64,000 nt of DNA, from assembly GCF_026676115.1 (NCBI RefSeq), contig NZ_JAPONB010000008.1, forward strand, positions 62,001-126,000. Direction: 5' to 3'. Of the stretch, positions 53,604 through 60,938 are shown piece by piece. The notes below the pieces were generated by a model. That model was given only the letters and a program-made list of their open reading frames with translations, did no database searches and was not told where the DNA came from. The translations under genes were made by a program, and so were the position numbers. Within the stretch, counting starts at the first letter, position 1. Each line of letters starts with the position of its first letter. The DNA is from Salinimicrobium sp. TH3 (GTDB lineage Bacteria; Bacteroidota; Bacteroidia; Flavobacteriales; Flavobacteriaceae).

Positions 53604-53915
53604 TTATTCTGTCCTTTCTCCTTCCCACTGAGAAAATCCTCCAAGAAGGTTATAGGTGTTTTTAAATCCCTTTTGATCCATGATAGCACAGGCTTGACCG
53701 CTTCTGTTTCCACTACGGCAATAGATATAATAATTTTTACTCTTATCCAGTTTATCAATTTCATCGATGAATTCCTGCCCTTTATAGATATCAATGACCC
53801 TTGCGCCGGGTATGTAACCTTCCTCTACTTCCTGTTCAGTTCGAACATCCAGAATAACAGCATCATCATCTTCTGCAATTTTTTCTCTCCACTCTTCCTG
53901 ATTTATTTCTTTCAT
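53604..53915 (-). CDS. Single-domain rhodanese-like protein
   Basis: The 103-residue cytoplasmic rhodanese starts at MKEINQEEWREKI; the upstream in-frame extension to 53981 is not rhodanese-like. It has AVILDVRTEQEVEEGYIPGA and the active-site loop YCRSGNRSGQA with Cys66, then GFKNTYNLLGGFSQWEG. The CRSGNR loop is of the sulfurtransferase (GlpE/PspE) type. It moves sulfane sulfur to an acceptor not identifiable here. It is transcribed divergently from the trp leader. Confidence 0.93.
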   Translation of the reverse strand: MKEINQEEWREKIAEDDDAVILDVRTEQEVEEGYIPGARVIDIYKGQEFIDEIDKLDKSKNYYIYCRSGNRSGQACAIMDQKGFKNTYNLLGGFSQWEGERTE

Positions 53916-54044
53916 AATTTCATGTTTAAATTTATCCTCACAAATATAAGAATCACCTGCTCTTTTAGAGCTCCTTTCCAACTTCAGATTGTTTATGCCT
54001 AAGAAATTTTTCCATAAAATATTTTTTTAGAAATATTTCCCATC

Positions 54045-54052
54045 TATATTTG
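54045..54052 (+). promoter_or_regulatory. Bacteroidota-type -7 box TATATTTG of the trp operon
   Basis: TATATTTG is a perfect match to the Bacteroidota -7 consensus TAnnTTTG. The -33 region is T-rich (54022-54029) without a clean TTTG. The expected start of transcription falls at about 54057-54061, at or next to the leader ATG. Confidence 0.55.
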
Positions 54053-54060
54053 CTATTCTA

Positions 54061-54117
54061 ATGAAACTGATAAACAAAAATAACTGGTGGTGGAAGTCCT
54101 TACGTGAATCGTCGTGA
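54061..54117 (+). CDS. trpL: trp operon leader peptide with three consecutive Trp codons
   Basis: An 18-codon ORF encodes MKLINKNNWWWKSLRESS. Codons 9-11 are three consecutive TGG tryptophan codons (54085-54093), rare by chance and the hallmark of a ribosome-mediated attenuator. It precedes an intrinsic terminator (54142-54173) and the trpE start at 54208. Its own stop codon TGA lies inside GTCGTGA (54111-54117). That segment can pair with TCACGAC (54155-54161) in the loop and 3' arm of the terminator. Stalling at the Trp codons would leave GTCGTGA free to form the antiterminator; completing the peptide would mask it and let the terminator form. This is inferred from sequence only. Confidence 0.85.
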   Translation: MKLINKNNWWWKSLRESS

Positions 54118-54141
54118 GCAACACCTCCTGTAATCATATAC

Positions 54142-54173
54142 AAAGGCTTGTCAATCACGACAAGCCTTTTTTT
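54142..54173 (+). terminator. trp attenuator terminator
   Basis: AGGCTTGTC and GACAAGCCT form a 9-bp stem with a six-base loop, followed by seven T residues. It lies between the leader peptide and trpE, so it can only act as an attenuator for the operon. Confidence 0.88.
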
Positions 54174-54207
54174 ATGTCCGCATTTCAGTAAAAACAGAAG
54201 AAAAAAC

Positions 54208-55602
54208 ATGTACAAACTCAATACTACCTATAAAAAACTCCTGGCCGATACCTTTACCCCTGTAAGCGTTTATCTAAGGCTTCGGGATATTTTTCCCAAC
54301 AGCCTGTTGCTGGAAAGTAGTGACTATCACGGGAACGAAAACAGCTTCTCCTACATTTGCTGCAATCCTATCGCAGGAGTAAAGGTTGAAAAAGGGCATT
54401 TTATCGAATTCTTTCCAGATGGCACTTCCAGGGAAACTAAAATTTCATCGAAATTTGATGTTCCTGCCGGTATTCATGATTTCTCTAAAAAGTTCAAAAC
54501 CACCGGTCCCGACTTTAATTTTATTAATGAAGGTCTTTTTGGTTATATCGCTTACGACGGTGTGCAGTATTTTGAGAAGCTCAACCTTTCAAAGAAAAAG
54601 GAAGACCTGGAAATCCCGGAGATCAACTATTCCATCTATCAGAATATAATAGCCATTAACCATTTCAACAATGAAGCCTACATATTCGACCACAGCTTTA
54701 ATTCAAAGAGCAATCTTGAACAAATAGAGCAACTTCTCAAAGTCAAAAATTTCGCTTCCTATGCTTTTTCTGCGGAAGGAGAACCGGCTTCAAATGAAAC
54801 CGATGAAGGTTACCGCCAGATGGTTTTAAAGGCTAAAGAACATTGCCACCGCGGCGACGTTTTTCAACTGGTCCTCTCCCGAAGGTTTTCACAAGCATTT
54901 AAAGGTGACGAATTCAATGTCTATCGTGCCCTGCGAAATGTGAATCCTTCCCCCTATCTCTTCTATTTTGACTACGGAAGCTTTAAGATCTTTGGAAGTT
55001 CACCTGAAGCCCAGCTGGTGGTCAAAGAAGGCAAAGCCGAGATACATCCCATTGCCGGAACCTTCAAACGCACCGGAAATGATGAACAGGATGCTGCAAG
55101 TGCAAAAGTTCTGGCGGCCGACGAAAAGGAAAATGCCGAACATGTGATGCTCGTCGACCTGGCCCGCAATGATCTAAGCCGTAGCAGTAAAGAGGTGAAA
55201 GTTGAAAATTATAAGGAGATCCAGTATTTCTCTCACGTAATCCACCTGGTGAGTAAAGTGACAGGTATTAAAAACAGGGATGTGAGCACCATGCAAATGG
55301 TAGCCGATACCTTTCCCGCAGGAACACTAAGCGGAGCCCCAAAACATAAGGCCATGCAGCTCATAGAAAAATACGAAAATGTCAATCGCGATTTTTATGG
55401 TGGTGCCATAGGGTTCATGGACTTCAATGGGAATTTTAACCACGCCATCATCATCAGGTCTTTTTTAAGTAAGAACCACCGACTCTATTACCAGGCCGGC
55501 GCCGGAGTAGTTTCGGGATCAACGCCCGAAGGGGAATTACAGGAAGTCTACAATAAGATAGGAGCTCTTAAAAAAGCACTGGAACTGGCTGAAGAGATAT
55601 AA
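54208..55602 (+). CDS. trpE: Anthranilate synthase component I
   Basis: The 464-residue enzyme converts chorismate (with ammonia or glutamine via TrpG) to anthranilate, the first committed step of tryptophan synthesis. I start it at MYKLNTTYKKLLADTF. A Met 20 codons upstream would lie inside the attenuator hairpin. The C-terminal chorismate-binding domain shows VFQLVLSRRFSQAF, HPIAGTFKRTGN, MLVDLARNDLSRS, TFPAGTLSGAPK and the final AGAGVVSGSTPEGE motif. The N-terminal SLLLESSDYHGNENSFSYIC segment resembles the LLES feedback-site region of TrpE. First structural gene of trpEGDCFBA. Confidence 0.96.
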   Translation: MYKLNTTYKKLLADTFTPVSVYLRLRDIFPNSLLLESSDYHGNENSFSYICCNPIAGVKVEKGHFIEFFPDGTSRETKISSKFDVPAGIHDFSKKFKTTGPDFNFINEGLFGYIAYDGVQYFEKLNLSKKKEDLEIPEINYSIYQNIIAINHFNNEAYIFDHSFNSKSNLEQIEQLLKVKNFASYAFSAEGEPASNETDEGYRQMVLKAKEHCHRGDVFQLVLSRRFSQAFKGDEFNVYRALRNVNPSPYLFYFDYGSFKIFGSSPEAQLVVKEGKAEIHPIAGTFKRTGNDEQDAASAKVLAADEKENAEHVMLVDLARNDLSRSSKEVKVENYKEIQYFSHVIHLVSKVTGIKNRDVSTMQMVADTFPAGTLSGAPKHKAMQLIEKYENVNRDFYGGAIGFMDFNGNFNHAIIIRSFLSKNHRLYYQAGAGVVSGSTPEGELQEVYNKIGALKKALELAEEI

Positions 55603-55604
55603 CA

Positions 55605-55640
55605 CCCCGCCCAGCGGGCACCCCTTCTTAGGAAGGAGGA
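55605..55640. repeat. Two small hairpins between trpE and trpG
   Basis: CCCGC-CCA-GCGGG (55606-55618) is followed by CCTTC-TTAG-GAAGG. Similar CCCCTTCTT/AAGGAGG hairpins are common Bacteroidota intergenic repeats. The second hairpin holds a GGAAGGAGGAG tract that could act as a ribosome-binding site for trpG. Confidence 0.5.
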
Positions 55641-55656
55641 GAAAAAGAAAATAAAA

Positions 55657-56337
55657 ATGGAAAATAAAGAATATAAGACCGGTAATTCCCTAACCTCTAC
55701 AGAGAACCAAGGAGGAGCTAAATTCTCTGTGCTTGTAATCGACAATTACGATTCTTTCGTGTACAACCTGGTACATTATCTGGAGGAACTGGATTGTGTA
55801 GTAACTGTACGCCGCAATGATGAAGTGAATCTTGAGGATATTGAAAAATATGACAAGATCCTGCTTTCCCCCGGCCCTGGAATTCCCGATGAAGCAGGCC
55901 TTCTCAAAGAAATAATCTCTACCTACGCCTCCAAAAAGAGCATTTTTGGTGTGTGTTTGGGTCAGCAGGCTATAGGAGAAGTCTTTGGCGGAAAAATTAT
56001 CAATCTCAAGGAAGTTCATCATGGTGTGGCATCCAAAATAAAATTATGCGTAGAAGACGAACCTCTTTTTGATCAATTAGAAAATGAGCTGGAAGTAGGG
56101 CGTTATCATTCATGGGTAGTTGACAAGGCTTTGCCAGACTGTTTGGAGGCCACTTCTTATGATGAGAATGGAGAAGTAATGTCTCTGCGTCACAGAGATT
56201 TCGATGTGCGGGGAGTGCAATTTCATCCTGAATCGGTTTTAACGCCACAGGGAAAAAAGATGATTGCCAACTGGATCAATAGTCCGGTAAGGAAGAGCAA
56301 AGAAGAATCAAACAATCGGGAAGCCGAAACAATTTAG
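55657..56337 (+). CDS. trpG: Anthranilate synthase component II (glutamine amidotransferase)
   Basis: This 226-residue class I amidotransferase supplies ammonia to TrpE. The fold starts SVLVIDNYDSFVYNLVHYLE after a nonconserved 22-residue N-terminal extension. It carries LSPGPGIPDEAG, the catalytic cysteine in GVCLGQQAIGEVFGG (Cys100) and the His-Glu pair in VQFHPESVLTPQG. The trpG-type substitution pattern and the operon position distinguish it from pabA, although it could serve both. It is 54 bases after trpE and four before trpD. Confidence 0.95.
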   Translation: MENKEYKTGNSLTSTENQGGAKFSVLVIDNYDSFVYNLVHYLEELDCVVTVRRNDEVNLEDIEKYDKILLSPGPGIPDEAGLLKEIISTYASKKSIFGVCLGQQAIGEVFGGKIINLKEVHHGVASKIKLCVEDEPLFDQLENELEVGRYHSWVVDKALPDCLEATSYDENGEVMSLRHRDFDVRGVQFHPESVLTPQGKKMIANWINSPVRKSKEESNNREAETI

Positions 56338-56341
56338 CAGG

Positions 56342-57331
56342 ATGAAAGACATTTTAAACAGGTTGATCAATCATGAAACTATTTCAAAGGAAGAGGCCAG
56401 AAAAGTTTTGGTAAACATCTCTACCGGCGAATACAATGACAGTCAAATTGCCGCCTTTCTTACGGTTTATATGATGCGCAGCATTACTCTTGAAGAACTG
56501 GAAGGTTTTAGAGACGCACTTTTGGAAATGTGCCTTTCCACAGATCTTTCTCAATATGACCCCATTGATCTTTGTGGTACCGGTGGCGATGGGAAGGACA
56601 CCTTTAATATTTCCACACTTGCCTCTTTTGTGACAGCAGGCGCAGGAGTAAAAGTAGCCAAGCATGGTAACTACGGAGTTTCTTCAAGCTGCGGAAGTTC
56701 AAATGTTATGGAGCACTTTGGAATAAAATTCAGTAATGAGCAGAATTTCCTAAAACGAAGTATGGATGAGGCGGGAATTTGTTTCTTACATGCCGCTTTA
56801 TTTCACCCGGCCATGAAGAACGTAGCACCCATAAGGAAGAACCTGGGCGTAAAAACATTCTTTAATATGCTGGGACCTATGGTGAATCCGGCTTTCCCGA
56901 AGAAACAGGTAGTGGGGGTTTACAGCCTGGAGCTCGCGAGAATGTATGCTTATCTTTACCAGAAAACAGATAAGAATTTCACCATTTTACACGCCCTTGA
57001 TGGCTACGATGAGATCTCCCTTACCGGAAATACAAAAATGATCACCAATAATACCGAAGCTATGTTAAGGCCAGCCGACCTAAACCTTACCGCCGTCCAC
57101 GCAATCGAAATTTCAGGAGGAGACAGTGTATCCTCGGCGGCAGAGATCTTTATGAATGTACTTAGCAATAAAGGTACGGCAGCACAGGAAAATGTGGTTT
57201 GTGCCAATGCGGCAGTGGCAATAAACACCGCAAAAAATACAGGGCTGGAAAATGCATTTTTGGAAGCAAAGGAAAGCCTGCGTTCAGGCCGTGCTTTAAA
57301 TGCGCTTAAAAAACTACAGCAATTAAATTAG
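56342..57331 (+). CDS. trpD: Anthranilate phosphoribosyltransferase
   Basis: The 329-residue enzyme joins anthranilate and PRPP to phosphoribosyl-anthranilate. Motifs visible are the PRPP loop DLCGTGGDGKDTFNIST, VAKHGNYGVSSSCGSSNVME, FHPAMKNVAPIRKNLGVKTF and NMLGPMVNPAFPKKQVVGVY. Length is normal for the family (330-345). It starts four bases after trpG and ends 10 bases before trpC, so translation is probably coupled across the operon. Confidence 0.97.
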   Translation: MKDILNRLINHETISKEEARKVLVNISTGEYNDSQIAAFLTVYMMRSITLEELEGFRDALLEMCLSTDLSQYDPIDLCGTGGDGKDTFNISTLASFVTAGAGVKVAKHGNYGVSSSCGSSNVMEHFGIKFSNEQNFLKRSMDEAGICFLHAALFHPAMKNVAPIRKNLGVKTFFNMLGPMVNPAFPKKQVVGVYSLELARMYAYLYQKTDKNFTILHALDGYDEISLTGNTKMITNNTEAMLRPADLNLTAVHAIEISGGDSVSSAAEIFMNVLSNKGTAAQENVVCANAAVAINTAKNTGLENAFLEAKESLRSGRALNALKKLQQLN

Positions 57332-57341
57332 TTAGAAAAAA

Positions 57342-58133
57342 ATGAACATACTGGATAAAATAGCAGCAAGAAAAAGAGAAGAAGTAGCCATTCTTAAAGA
57401 AGAAGTGCCTGCTGAATCCCTGCAACTCCTGCCCCACTTTCATCGCAAATGTTATTCGTTAAAAGAAAACCTGAAGAATTCCTCCACAGGGATCATTGCA
57501 GAATTTAAGCGCCGCTCCCCTTCTCATCCCGAGATAAACCTGGAAGCCGATGCTGCCACTGTAACGGCAGGATATGAAGCTGCGGGTGCATCGGGAATTT
57601 CGGTGCTAACAGATGAGGAATTCTTTGGCGGCAGCCTGGATGATCTTGCAATTGCAAGAGAAACAGTCAAGCTTCCATTGCTTCGAAAGGATTTTATGAT
57701 CGACGAATATCAAATCGTTGAAGCCAAAGCCATGGGTGCAGATGTGATCCTGTTGATCGCAGCTATTCTAAAGCCCGAAGAGATTAAAAATCTTTCAAAA
57801 AAGGCAAAAGATCTGGGCCTTGAGGTGCTGTTGGAAGTGCATAATGAAGAGGAGCTGGAAAATGCCATTTTTGACACCGTAGATATGATTGGTGTAAATA
57901 ACCGGAACCTCAAAACTTTTGAGGTAGATCTTGGCATTAGTAAAGACCTGGCACAAAAGATCCCTAACCAGTTTGTGAAAATCTCCGAAAGCGGTATTAG
58001 CGACACTGCACCAATTATTGAGCTCCAAAAAAGCGGTTTCAAGGGCTTCCTTATTGGTGGGAATTTTATGAAAACCGAAGATCCCGGAAAAAGCGCTTCA
58101 GAATTCATTAAGAAATTAAAAAACAAAGCCTGA
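57342..58133 (+). CDS. trpC: Indole-3-glycerol-phosphate synthase
   Basis: The 263-residue TIM-barrel enzyme closes the indole ring. It has the N-terminal ILDKIAARKREEVAILKEE, IIAEFKRRSPSHPEIN (catalytic lysine), SVLTDEEFFGGSLDDL, LLRKDFMIDEYQIVEAKAMG, GVNNRNLKTFEVDL and VKISESGISDTAPI with FLIGGNFMK. It is a stand-alone trpC, not fused to trpF. Its TGATG junction overlaps trpF by one base. Confidence 0.97.
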   Translation: MNILDKIAARKREEVAILKEEVPAESLQLLPHFHRKCYSLKENLKNSSTGIIAEFKRRSPSHPEINLEADAATVTAGYEAAGASGISVLTDEEFFGGSLDDLAIARETVKLPLLRKDFMIDEYQIVEAKAMGADVILLIAAILKPEEIKNLSKKAKDLGLEVLLEVHNEEELENAIFDTVDMIGVNNRNLKTFEVDLGISKDLAQKIPNQFVKISESGISDTAPIIELQKSGFKGFLIGGNFMKTEDPGKSASEFIKKLKNKA

Positions 58134-58780
58134 TGAACCTGAAACTGAAGATCTGCGGAATGCGGGAGCCCGAGAATATGAGCAGGATCGAGGCTTTACA
58201 TCCCGATTACCTGGGACTTATTTTCTTTGCCGGTTCTTCGCGGAATGTTTCCGAAGAAATTCTTCAGGTGGGAGAAAAGATCAAAAGAACGGGAGTTTTT
58301 GTAAATGCTTCAAAGGAAGAAATCCTGGAGAAGGTTGAAAAATATAAGCTTTCGGCACTTCAGCTTCATGGAGAGGAAAGTCCGGCATTTTGCAAGGAGC
58401 TTACAACAACGCTTTCAGAAGGAATAGAGTTGATCAAGGTCTTCAGTATTAAAGAAGAATTTGATTTTGACCGGCTGCGCCCGTACGAAGGTATCGTAGA
58501 TTACTTCCTGTTTGACACCAAGGGAGAAAACAAGGGTGGCAATGGCATTATGTTTAACTGGGAAGTATTAAAAGATTATCCTTCCACTACTCCTTTTTTC
58601 CTGAGTGGTGGGATTGGTCCCGGGGATGAGCCTGCGATCAAAGAACTTTACCGTAGCTTTCAAAAAAGGGAAAAAGAAAGTTTGTTCTACGGGATAGATG
58701 TAAACAGCAAATTTGAGACTGCCCCGGCAGTAAAAGACGCCGAAGCCCTGAAGATCTTCAGACAACGGCTATATAATTGA
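58133..58780 (+). CDS. trpF: Phosphoribosylanthranilate isomerase
   Basis: The 215-residue TIM-barrel isomerase catalyses the Amadori rearrangement of phosphoribosyl-anthranilate. It has [19 protein letters not shown] (catalytic Cys in ICGM), [51 protein letters not shown], the [16 protein letters not shown] loop with the catalytic Asp, and [14 protein letters not shown]. The family-typical length and its position between trpC and trpB are clear. Confidence 0.96.
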
Positions 58781-58785
58781 ACATT

Positions 58786-59967
58786 ATGAGTTATCAAGTA
58801 AACGAAAAAGGATATTACGGGGATTTTGGCGGTGCCTTTATTCCTGAAATGTTATACCCAAACGTGGAGGAATTACGCTCCCAATATTTAGAGATCATGC
58901 AGGAGGAGGATTTCCAAAAGGAGTTCCGCCAGCTGCTCAAGGATTATGTAGGGAGACCAACTCCACTTTATTTTGCTGAAAGATTCAGTCAAAAATATGG
59001 GACAAAGATCTATCTAAAACGTGAAGATCTTTGCCATACGGGGGCGCATAAGGTGAATAATACCGTTGGGCAGATCCTCATGGCAAAACGCTTGGGCAAG
59101 AACCGCATCATCGCCGAAACCGGCGCAGGACAGCATGGCGTCGCTACTGCAACTGTTTGCGCCCTTATGGGGATTGAATGTATTGTTTATATGGGGGAGG
59201 TTGATATTAAAAGGCAGGCGCCTAATGTTGCGCGAATGAAAATGCTTGGGGCCACTGTAGTCCCGGCAATTTCGGGAAGTAAAACTTTGAAGGACGCCAC
59301 CAATGAAGCAATCCGCGACTGGATCAACAATCCGCTGGATACGCATTATATTATTGGCTCTGTTGTAGGGCCTCATCCTTATCCCGATATGGTAGCCCGC
59401 TTCCAGAGTGTGATTTCTGAAGAGGTAAAAATCCAGCTTAAGGAAAAAGAAGGTCGTGAGGCACCAGATCATGTCGTGGCCTGCGTAGGTGGAGGCAGTA
59501 ATGCCGCCGGGATCTACTATCACTACCTTGATAACGAAAAGGTAAATATCATTGCTGTGGAAGCTGCCGGAGAGGGCATCCTTACCGGAAAAAGCGCTGC
59601 CACCTCTGCTCTAGGCCGGGAAGGCATTATTCACGGTAGCAAAACCCTGCTTATGCAAACCGATGACGGACAGATCACCGAACCTTATTCAATTTCTGCC
59701 GGCCTTGATTATCCCGGAGTGGGGCCAATGCACGCGAACCTGTTTAGGACAGGACGTGGAGAATTCATCTCTATCACCGATGAGGATGCCATGGCAGCCG
59801 GATTGCAACTCTGCAAACTGGAGGGGATCATTCCCGCCATAGAAACTGCCCATGCACTTGCTATTTTTGACAAGCGGAAATTTGAGAAAGATGAAGTTGT
59901 GGTAGTTAACCTGTCGGGGCGTGGAGACAAAGACCTCAACACCTATATCGAACATTTTAATTTGTAA
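58786..59967 (+). CDS. trpB: Tryptophan synthase beta subunit
   Basis: The 393-residue PLP enzyme makes tryptophan from indole and serine. I start it at [20 protein letters not shown]; a TTG three codons upstream would overlap trpF. The PLP lysine is in [13 protein letters not shown], the catalytic Glu in [14 protein letters not shown], and the phosphate loop in [15 protein letters not shown]. The indole-tunnel and COMM regions ([20 protein letters not shown]) are present. It ends 203 bases before trpA because of an inserted repeat element. Confidence 0.97.
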
Positions 59968-59977
59968 ATAAAACAGG

Positions 59978-60156
59978 CCTCACAGGTTTTGAAAACATCG
60001 TCATCCTGAGCTTGTTTTGAGAGCATTAAGAAGCTGAAATAAATTGAAAGTACCGTCATCCTGAACTTGTTTCAGGATCTAATGGAAGCTGAAATAAATT
60101 CAGCTTGACGCAAGAAAAATAAAATTAAATCTTACAGGTTTTTAAAACCTGTGAGG
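59978..60156. repeat. Inverted-repeat element inserted between trpB and trpA
   Basis: The ends read CCTCACAGGTTTTGAAAAC (59978-59996) and, inverted, CCTCACAGGTTTTAAAAA (60139-60156). The right end also forms the palindrome ACAGGTTTTTAAAACCTGT. Inside are two tandem copies of a hairpin unit: CGTCATCCTGA...GAAGCTGAAATAAATT at about 59999-60048 and again at 60054-60110, the second ending TTCAGCTTGACG. The unit is shared, inverted, with the element at 29444-29580. No ORF. Confidence 0.75.
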
Positions 60157-60170
60157 TTCAAAAAAAGAAC

Positions 60171-60938
60171 ATGAACAGAATCAAACAAAAACTACAGGAA
60201 AAGCCTTCAAAAAAGCTGCTTTCCATATACTTTACAGCCGGATATCCCGAACCTGACGATACTACTACAATTTTACAGGAGCTGCAAAAAAGCGGGGTGG
60301 ACATGGTGGAGATAGGGCTGCCATTTAGCGATCCCCTTGCCGATGGACCGGTGATCCAAAAAAGTTCTGAAGCCGCTTTAAAGAACGGCATGACCACCAA
60401 CAAACTTTTTTCTCAACTGGAAAGCATCAGGGAAAGCATCGACATTCCTTTGTTGATCATGGGGTATTTTAATCCCATTCTTCAATACGGGGTAGAGAAA
60501 TTCTGCCGCAAGTGCAGCGAAATAGGTATTGACGGGCTTATAATCCCCGATCTTCCCCTGGAAGAATACGAACTGCAGTACAAAGAGATTTTTAAGCAGT
60601 ACGATCTACTTCCGGTGTTCCTTGTTACCCCACAAACTTCAGAAGAAAGAATTAGGGAGATTGACAGAGCTTCCGAAGGATTTATCTATATGGTAAGTAC
60701 CGCGGCAGTTACGGGAGGAACAGGAGGTTTTGGCGAAGCACAAAAAGAATATTTTGACAGGGTGTCAAAAATGGGTTTACAGAACCCTCTAATTGTTGGT
60801 TTTGGAATAAAGGACAGTACGAGTTTTGAGCAGGCTACGGCAGTGACCAACGGCGCAATTATTGGCAGTGCCTTTATAAAACAACTTACTGACAGCGGCA
60901 CCTCCGGGATTTCGGATTTTATCAATTCCATAAGATAA
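60171..60938 (+). CDS. trpA: Tryptophan synthase alpha subunit
   Basis: The 255-residue TIM-barrel lyase splits indole-3-glycerol phosphate to indole and glyceraldehyde 3-phosphate. Catalytic Glu lies in VDMVEIGLPFSDPLADGPVI, and the catalytic Asp in GLIIPDLPLEEYE. The phosphate-binding IVGFGIKDSTSFEQ and GAIIGSAFIKQL, plus the mobile loop STAAVTGGTGGFG, are intact. It is separated from trpB by a repeat element. It may rely on read-through or its own start signals. Confidence 0.96.
   Translation: MNRIKQKLQEKPSKKLLSIYFTAGYPEPDDTTTILQELQKSGVDMVEIGLPFSDPLADGPVIQKSSEAALKNGMTTNKLFSQLESIRESIDIPLLIMGYFNPILQYGVEKFCRKCSEIGIDGLIIPDLPLEEYELQYKEIFKQYDLLPVFLVTPQTSEERIREIDRASEGFIYMVSTAAVTGGTGGFGEAQKEYFDRVSKMGLQNPLIVGFGIKDSTSFEQATAVTNGAIIGSAFIKQLTDSGTSGISDFINSIR

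Follow-up and report, generated by a model that had tools for sequence, protein, structure and literature searches.

A Bacteroid-trp leader of Salinimicrobium sp. TH3 read as a ribosome-mediated attenuator with a proposed loop-capture antiterminator

The RNA leader of the trp operon in the window, the 64-kb stretch of contig DNA analyzed here, was assigned a probability of about 0.8 of being a ribosome-mediated trp attenuator of the Bacteroid-trp family, in which the strand holding the leader stop codon would disarm the terminator by capturing its loop. The element is a real, ordinary member of a catalogued Rfam family, RF01692. The wiring of the switch and a promoter position close to the leader start go further than the descriptions found and look unusual; since the element was already catalogued, the gain is in mechanism. 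Attenuation is supported by the Trp-codon ORF, the terminator, the alternative hairpins and the place before a complete trp operon, all of which fit. Judged from its sequence, the leader very probably functions as a Trp attenuator; the particular wiring proposed, GUCGUGA with UCACGAC, is held with good but lesser confidence.

The leader, its operon and its family

The coordinates of all features are collected in Table 1. An 18-codon ORF with three tandem TGG codons and a T7 tail just 5′ of trpE had been described in a first-pass annotation and both were recovered, the trpE ATG lying 34 nt past the T run. The 9-bp GC-rich stem of that annotation was corrected to a terminator stem of 11 bp, 5 of them G-C, closed by a loop of 6 nt. 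One terminator-like site was found in the region (shuffle mean 0.3, sd 0.5). The RNA from 54055 to 54177 was more stable than its shuffles with a z of −4.53, none of 200 being as good.

Table 1. Features of the trp leader, operon and neighborhood, in window coordinates
Feature	Position	Strand	Basis or remark
Rhodanese-domain gene	53604-53915	-	divergent from trp operon
-7 box TATATTTG	54045-54052	+	match to Bacteroidota sigma-A TAnnTTTG; predicted start 54057-54058
Leader peptide ORF	54061-54117	+	18 codons; ATG 54061; stop TGA 54115-54117; peptide MKLINKNNWWWKSLRESS
Hairpin 1:2	54083-54131	+	Rfam Bacteroid-trp structure; Trp-codon strand with CACC region
Three tandem Trp codons (TGG x3), proposed stalling site	54085-54093	+	sequence; WWW in 95/96 loci
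Inner stem of hairpin 1:2	54099-54104 / 54113-54118	+	covariation
Proposed antiterminator, 5′ strand GUCGUGA	54111-54117	+	includes leader stop codon; overlaps 3′ strand of hairpin 1:2
ACACCU, possible antiterminator extension onto terminator ascending arm	54121-54126	+	stalled-state prefix fold
Intrinsic terminator	54142-54173	+	AAAGGCUUGUC-AAUCAC-GACAAGCCUUU; hairpin 54142-54169; T7 54167-54173
Proposed antiterminator, 3′ strand UCACGAC	54155-54161	+	terminator loop and first 3 nt of descending arm
Regulated operon trpE-G-D-C-F-B-A	54208-60938	+	NCBIfam matches
trpE	54208-55602	+	NCBIfam
trpG	55657-56337	+	NCBIfam
trpD	56342-57331	+	NCBIfam
trpC	57342-58133	+	NCBIfam
trpF	58133-58780	+	NCBIfam
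trpB	58777-59967	+	NCBIfam
trpA	60171-60938	+	NCBIfam

Some trp proteins scored below the cut-off of the equivalog model that matched them best; trpE, for one, reached 422 bits where 517.7 is needed. Sub-cut-off scores are common for such divergent equivalog models. The closest named TrpE relative among the matches listed was that of Salinimicrobium sediminilitoris, at 98% identity. The operon is tight except for a spacing of ∼200 nt between trpB and trpA (59968-60170). Because the rhodanese gene is divergent from the operon, the sequence 5′ of the leader must carry promoters in both directions.

Scanning of the window with Rfam gave RF01692 (Bacteroid-trp) at 54038-54152 with 51.6 bits (cut-off 49), the sole family above gathering score. 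The match is not truncated: it spans model positions 1-131 end to end, hairpin 1:2 included, and the genomic context required for the family is present, with trpE and six more trp genes downstream. Hairpin 1:2 is the only structure in the RF01692 consensus, which stops within the terminator's ascending arm; unlike the window element as described here, the model has neither terminator nor antiterminator. Weak matches of cyano_het_sRNA and Atu_C9 on the terminator were under the cut-off and were taken as chance. A T-box leader was rejected, no Rfam T-box family being above gathering score in the window. Control by TrpR or TRAP was rejected likewise: TRAP (PF02081) and TrpR (PF01371) gave no match in the host genome at E ≤ 0.001, and the controls for these searches were positive (B. 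subtilis for TRAP; E. coli and B. subtilis for Trp_repressor).

The statement that leader attenuators are little described in Bacteroidota was half right, for the element itself is on record. In the text available from these sources, Bacteroid-trp is listed as a table row (Weinberg 2010, PMC2864571), a Bacteroid-Trp RNA is named 5′ of the Flavobacterium psychrophilum trp operon (PMC6414381), and strong clues to leader-peptide attenuation 5′ of amino-acid operons are given for F. psychrophilum (PMC9723704).

Within the window's GTDB family the RF01692 model matched 178 of 249 genomes, the other 71 giving no match. It matched in 30 of 296 genomes drawn from the phylum, 28 of them in the window's family, and in 12 of 149 genomes of another order of the same class. 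Two sets of leaders were compared. Set 1, obtained by searching with the Rfam model, had 96 leader loci (94 distinct after removal of 2 duplicates), with WWW in 95 and WW in 1, ATG starts in 93 and GTG in 3, and a spacing from start to W run of 24 nt in 92, 21 nt in 3 and 27 nt in 1. Set 2 was the best 80 of 586 TrpE relatives, chosen by TrpE alone (78 distinct leaders), and is the fairer test of conservation since set 1 was picked by the Rfam model. A complete leader (start, W run, ORF and terminator) was present in 79 of these 80 loci, 78 with WWW and 1 with WW, at a spacing of 24 nt in 77 and 21 nt in 2. The remaining locus, L159, has the WWW ORF, and a run of N at the expected place of the terminator. 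Refutation was to follow if close relatives did not conserve the Trp codons or the terminator; both are conserved, and this, with the lack of a TrpR or TRAP match, supports Trp-attenuator function by comparison.

Zero in-frame stops were counted between start and W run, a count that is partly built in because the script steps back from the W run to a stop, so the fixed spacing alone was used as evidence. The spacing shifts in threes only (21, 24, 27), as for a translated ORF with tandem Trp codons. In the terminator alignment 98.5% of cells were paired and 18 were altered on both sides, and in the inner stem of hairpin 1:2 48 cells were altered on both sides; in neither case did any of 500 shuffles score as high.

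Two side observations were made on the leaders. The sequence CACCTCCT lies at 54122-54129 of the window leader and also occurs in L032 and L033. It equals a core anti-Shine-Dalgarno motif, a likeness that is probably chance since the motif is absent from most leaders and is part of hairpin 1:2. A small GIY-YIG ORF of 71-98 aa lies between attenuator and trpE in L100, L102, L108, L147, L150, L157 and L164, where the distance from the leader terminator to trpE is 383-474 nt. Its hosts are some Salegentibacter, Flagellimonas/Muricauda relatives and one uncultured Flavobacteriaceae. Two of the ORFs were tested and matched Pfam PF01541 with 62 and 65 bits. Short inverted-repeat-like stretches (TTTCCG..CGGAAA) lie next to the ORF where the sequence was inspected. 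From its sequence the ORF looks like a mobile insert, which would fall under the control of the attenuator.

Pairing of the stop-codon strand with the terminator loop

The best helix between spacer and terminator joined the stop-codon strand to the loop region in 91 of 94 leaders; this usual helix was absent from L062, L094 and L095. In 58 of the 78 distinct leaders of set 2 the leader stop is the TGA of the antiterminator strand, and in another 17 it lies 5 nt farther on. With the stop codon within the antiterminator strand, a ribosome at the stop covers that strand, and one at WWW lies over the sequence that pairs with this strand in hairpin 1:2.

Specificity was assessed by swap tests, in which terminators were exchanged among leaders and own pairing was compared with swapped pairing, a sharper measure than column covariation. 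Specificity was evident in the divergent sequences of 12 loci from another order, which had been picked by a model excluding the loop and the descending arm: swaps were as good as own pairing in 8 of 20,000 for the loop with the top of the descending arm, and in 18,712 of 20,000 for the ascending arm. The helix in this set is only 5 bp in L184 and 6 bp in L182. In the window's family, swaps of the loop + 3 nt were as good in 208 of 10,000 (set 1, 92 leaders), 8,551 of 10,000 (set 2, 78 leaders) and 540 of 10,000 (both sets, 163 leaders), L076 and L094 being excluded from this test. Swaps of whole terminators were as good in 0 of 10,000 in set 1 (94 leaders, two from other families) and 9,461 of 10,000 in set 2 (78 leaders), and those of the ascending arm in 8,919, 6,010 and 9,349 of 10,000. 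The weak or negative results in the window's family are ascribed to the element barely varying there.

Column measures were taken on the 94-row alignment, where the share of antiterminator cells that pair is 85.5% (84.6 in shuffles; 0/500 as high) and 9 cells are altered on both sides (2.6 in shuffles; 0/500). A control with the partner slid by one column came out against the pairing on one of five measures, the covariation score (0.059 against 0.053 for the true partner), but only 16.8% of cells pair in the slid register. Individual leaders have matched changes on the two strands. In Dokdonia pacifica (L127, of the window's family) the stop is changed from TGA to TAA and the loop is matched (TTACGA), giving TCGTAAGA/TCTTACGA; further cases are L187 (TTGTGAG/CTCACAA), L188 (ACCGTGAGT/ACTTACGGT), L178 (GTCGTAAG/CTTGCGGC) and L076 (GTTGCAG/CTGCGAC).

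Folds were calculated with ribosome footprints that assumed a leading edge of about 11-13 nt, for 88 of 94 leaders (the pattern did not find the element in the other 6). With RNA up to the loop, the mean antiterminator probability was 0.93 with the ribosome stalled at WWW (>0.5 in 84/88), 0.36 with no ribosome (>0.5 in 34/88) and 0.01 with the ribosome at the stop (>0.5 in 1/88). At least 5 nt of loop and arm top were captured in 156 of 165 leaders in the stalled state, 59 with no ribosome and 0 with the ribosome at the stop, and in 6.1% of shuffled spacers in the stalled state. As computed, the 1:2, antiterminator and terminator pairings are thus mutually exclusive and set by ribosome position. 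On full-length RNA at equilibrium the terminator wins in all ribosome states (mean 0.93-0.97), and it is likewise favored in minimum-energy folds of the full RNA of an E. coli K-12 trpL control; the antiterminator must therefore act kinetically, here and in E. coli.

The proposed sequence of events is as follows. Transcription would begin 3-4 nt 5′ of the leader ATG, with a ribosome trailing RNA polymerase. With ample charged tRNA-Trp the ribosome would pass WWW, reach the stop and hide GUCGUGA, so that the terminator hairpin would form and transcription would end. With scarce charged tRNA-Trp it would stall at the Trp codons and mask the 5′ strand of hairpin 1:2. The exposed GUCGUGA would then bind UCACGAC once the loop had been transcribed, and the terminator would be delayed until the polymerase was past. 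With no ribosome, hairpin 1:2 would sequester GUCGUGA, making termination the default.

The same data bear on attenuation with the classical E. coli wiring, in which pairing with the ascending arm acts and loop pairing is secondary. All 165 stalled-state folds have 4 nt or more of the ascending arm paired with upstream sequence, but equal arm pairing occurs in 73% of shuffled spacers; for this reason the extension along the arm, although present in every stalled fold, was discounted as evidence. ACACCU-type pairing with the arm barely exceeds shuffled controls, and the swap tests gave no sequence-specific signal for an E. coli-type ascending-arm antiterminator in the window's family or in the other order.

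A precedent for arm pairing does exist in a sister family of the same order (f2), for which 26 full-length TrpE loci were collected (L189-L214). A WWW or WW leader with a terminator was found in 24 of these, and none in L205 and L213. Twenty of the 24 leaders were used for swaps, the window-type L189 and L190 and the near-copies L199 and L206 being left out. Swaps were as good in 7 of 20,000 for the ascending arm and in 8,897 of 20,000 for the loop (no signal), figures that are not strict probabilities because the members are akin. The excluded L189 and L190 are f2 members with a Flavobacteriaceae-like TrpE and have the window-type pairing. The f2 leaders form a second Bacteroidota trp-leader group, mostly missed by Rfam; the RF01692 search gave no match in five listed genomes (g236) of this family, one of which, G260 (L193), has a WWW leader. 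For the window element, E. coli wiring is judged unlikely.

A second alternative, and a decidedly improbable one, is a pseudoknot between the loop and the stop-codon strand above an intact lower stem of 8 bp, which would tune termination or act as a site for a protein or a trans RNA. Such a structure is topologically allowed by reasoning, the pairing takes up no more than the three uppermost base pairs of the stem besides the loop, and the loop sequence is kept beyond the needs of a bare terminator. Against this, the strand is shared with hairpin 1:2 just as an attenuator switch requires, and the folds leave it free in the stalled state only. That the RNA is chiefly a trans-acting small RNA or a peptide source, with attenuation incidental, is very improbable: its predicted (near-)leaderless terminated transcript is similar to rnTrpL as described in the available text of PMC7298713, but no sign of any target was seen in the analysis and the conserved parts are WWW and the switch strands.

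Promoter position and leader start

Bacteroidota have their own sigma factor, and to our knowledge sigma-70-type promoters are not expected in them; 2 such promoters were found in the region against 2.3 in shuffles, no excess. The phylum is also, as far as we know, without Shine-Dalgarno sites, and none was found at the window leader. The sigma-A box ends 8 nt 5′ of the leader ATG. With the 4-5 nt between the TAnnTTTG box and the transcription start reported for F. johnsoniae (PMC6847099, available text), this predicts a leader of 3-4 nt.

In set 1, 94 of 96 loci had a -7 box no farther than 45 nt upstream, as did 75 of 79 in set 2. For 165 distinct leaders the gap from box to start codon was 4-8 nt in 87 (exactly 5 in 57), 9-12 in 7, 15-22 in 63 and 28 or 30 in 2, with no box in 6; in f2 it was 4-6 in 18 of 24. 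As a control, 43 mechanical ORFs in the window, a small set with a minimum length of 150 aa, were examined: 3 had a box within 60 nt, at 14, 19 and 49 nt. A quick TrpE tree with 94 rows (4 without box) required 11 changes between the short and long gap classes, against a shuffled mean of 25.5; the trait is thus clustered, yet has switched repeatedly.

As predicted from the -7 box alone, the leader transcript is likely to be near-leaderless at its start. Leaderless initiation is rare in the phylum; in the text available, 87% of predicted F. johnsoniae leaders are longer than 10 nt (PMC6847099) and 5.5% of F. psychrophilum mRNAs are leaderless (PMC9723704). If the leaderless reading is true, ribosome loading follows the transcription start without a 5′ leader, and tryptophan sensing, with the leader ORF at the 5′ end of the mRNA, hinges on leaderless initiation.

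Implications and comparison with known systems

We lean slightly toward a wider reading in which Bacteroidota trp leaders have at least two wirings (loop capture in the window's family and another order, ascending arm in f2), are leaderless in many lineages and can have the terminator disarmed via its loop. Two wirings within one phylum would provide a natural comparison. Loop capture, if right, means that attenuators are able to disarm a terminator through its loop; in the literature searched no description of this was found for amino-acid attenuators, and the supplement of Weinberg 2010 may say more. With an antiterminator named, an RNA family known from computation becomes a switch open to testing, in a phylum that lacks Shine-Dalgarno sites; the wiring and the promoter position are the parts that merit experiment.

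Two described systems are closest in outline. In Sinorhizobium meliloti, according to the available text of PMC7298713, rnTrpL starts at the trpL ATG, a leaderless trp leader in another phylum. The likeness is that of a trp attenuator RNA starting at its ATG, as predicted for many leaders of the window's family; the S. meliloti leader differs in its unrelated phylum and in the trans functions proposed there for the rnTrpL RNA and the peTrpL peptide.

With E. coli trpL the window element shares a short tandem-Trp ORF, a hairpin including the Trp codons and a terminator before trpE, so that the classical arrangement claimed in the first-pass annotation holds for the layout. It does not appear to extend to the antiterminator. 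The computed fold of E. coli trpL has the antiterminator strand bound to the terminator's ascending arm; in the window element it is the loop and the upper end of the descending arm that take part in the specific pairing, and the leader has no Shine-Dalgarno sequence and carries a sigma-A box 8 nt before its ATG. The window element thus appears to work like the E. coli trpL attenuator while being wired differently.
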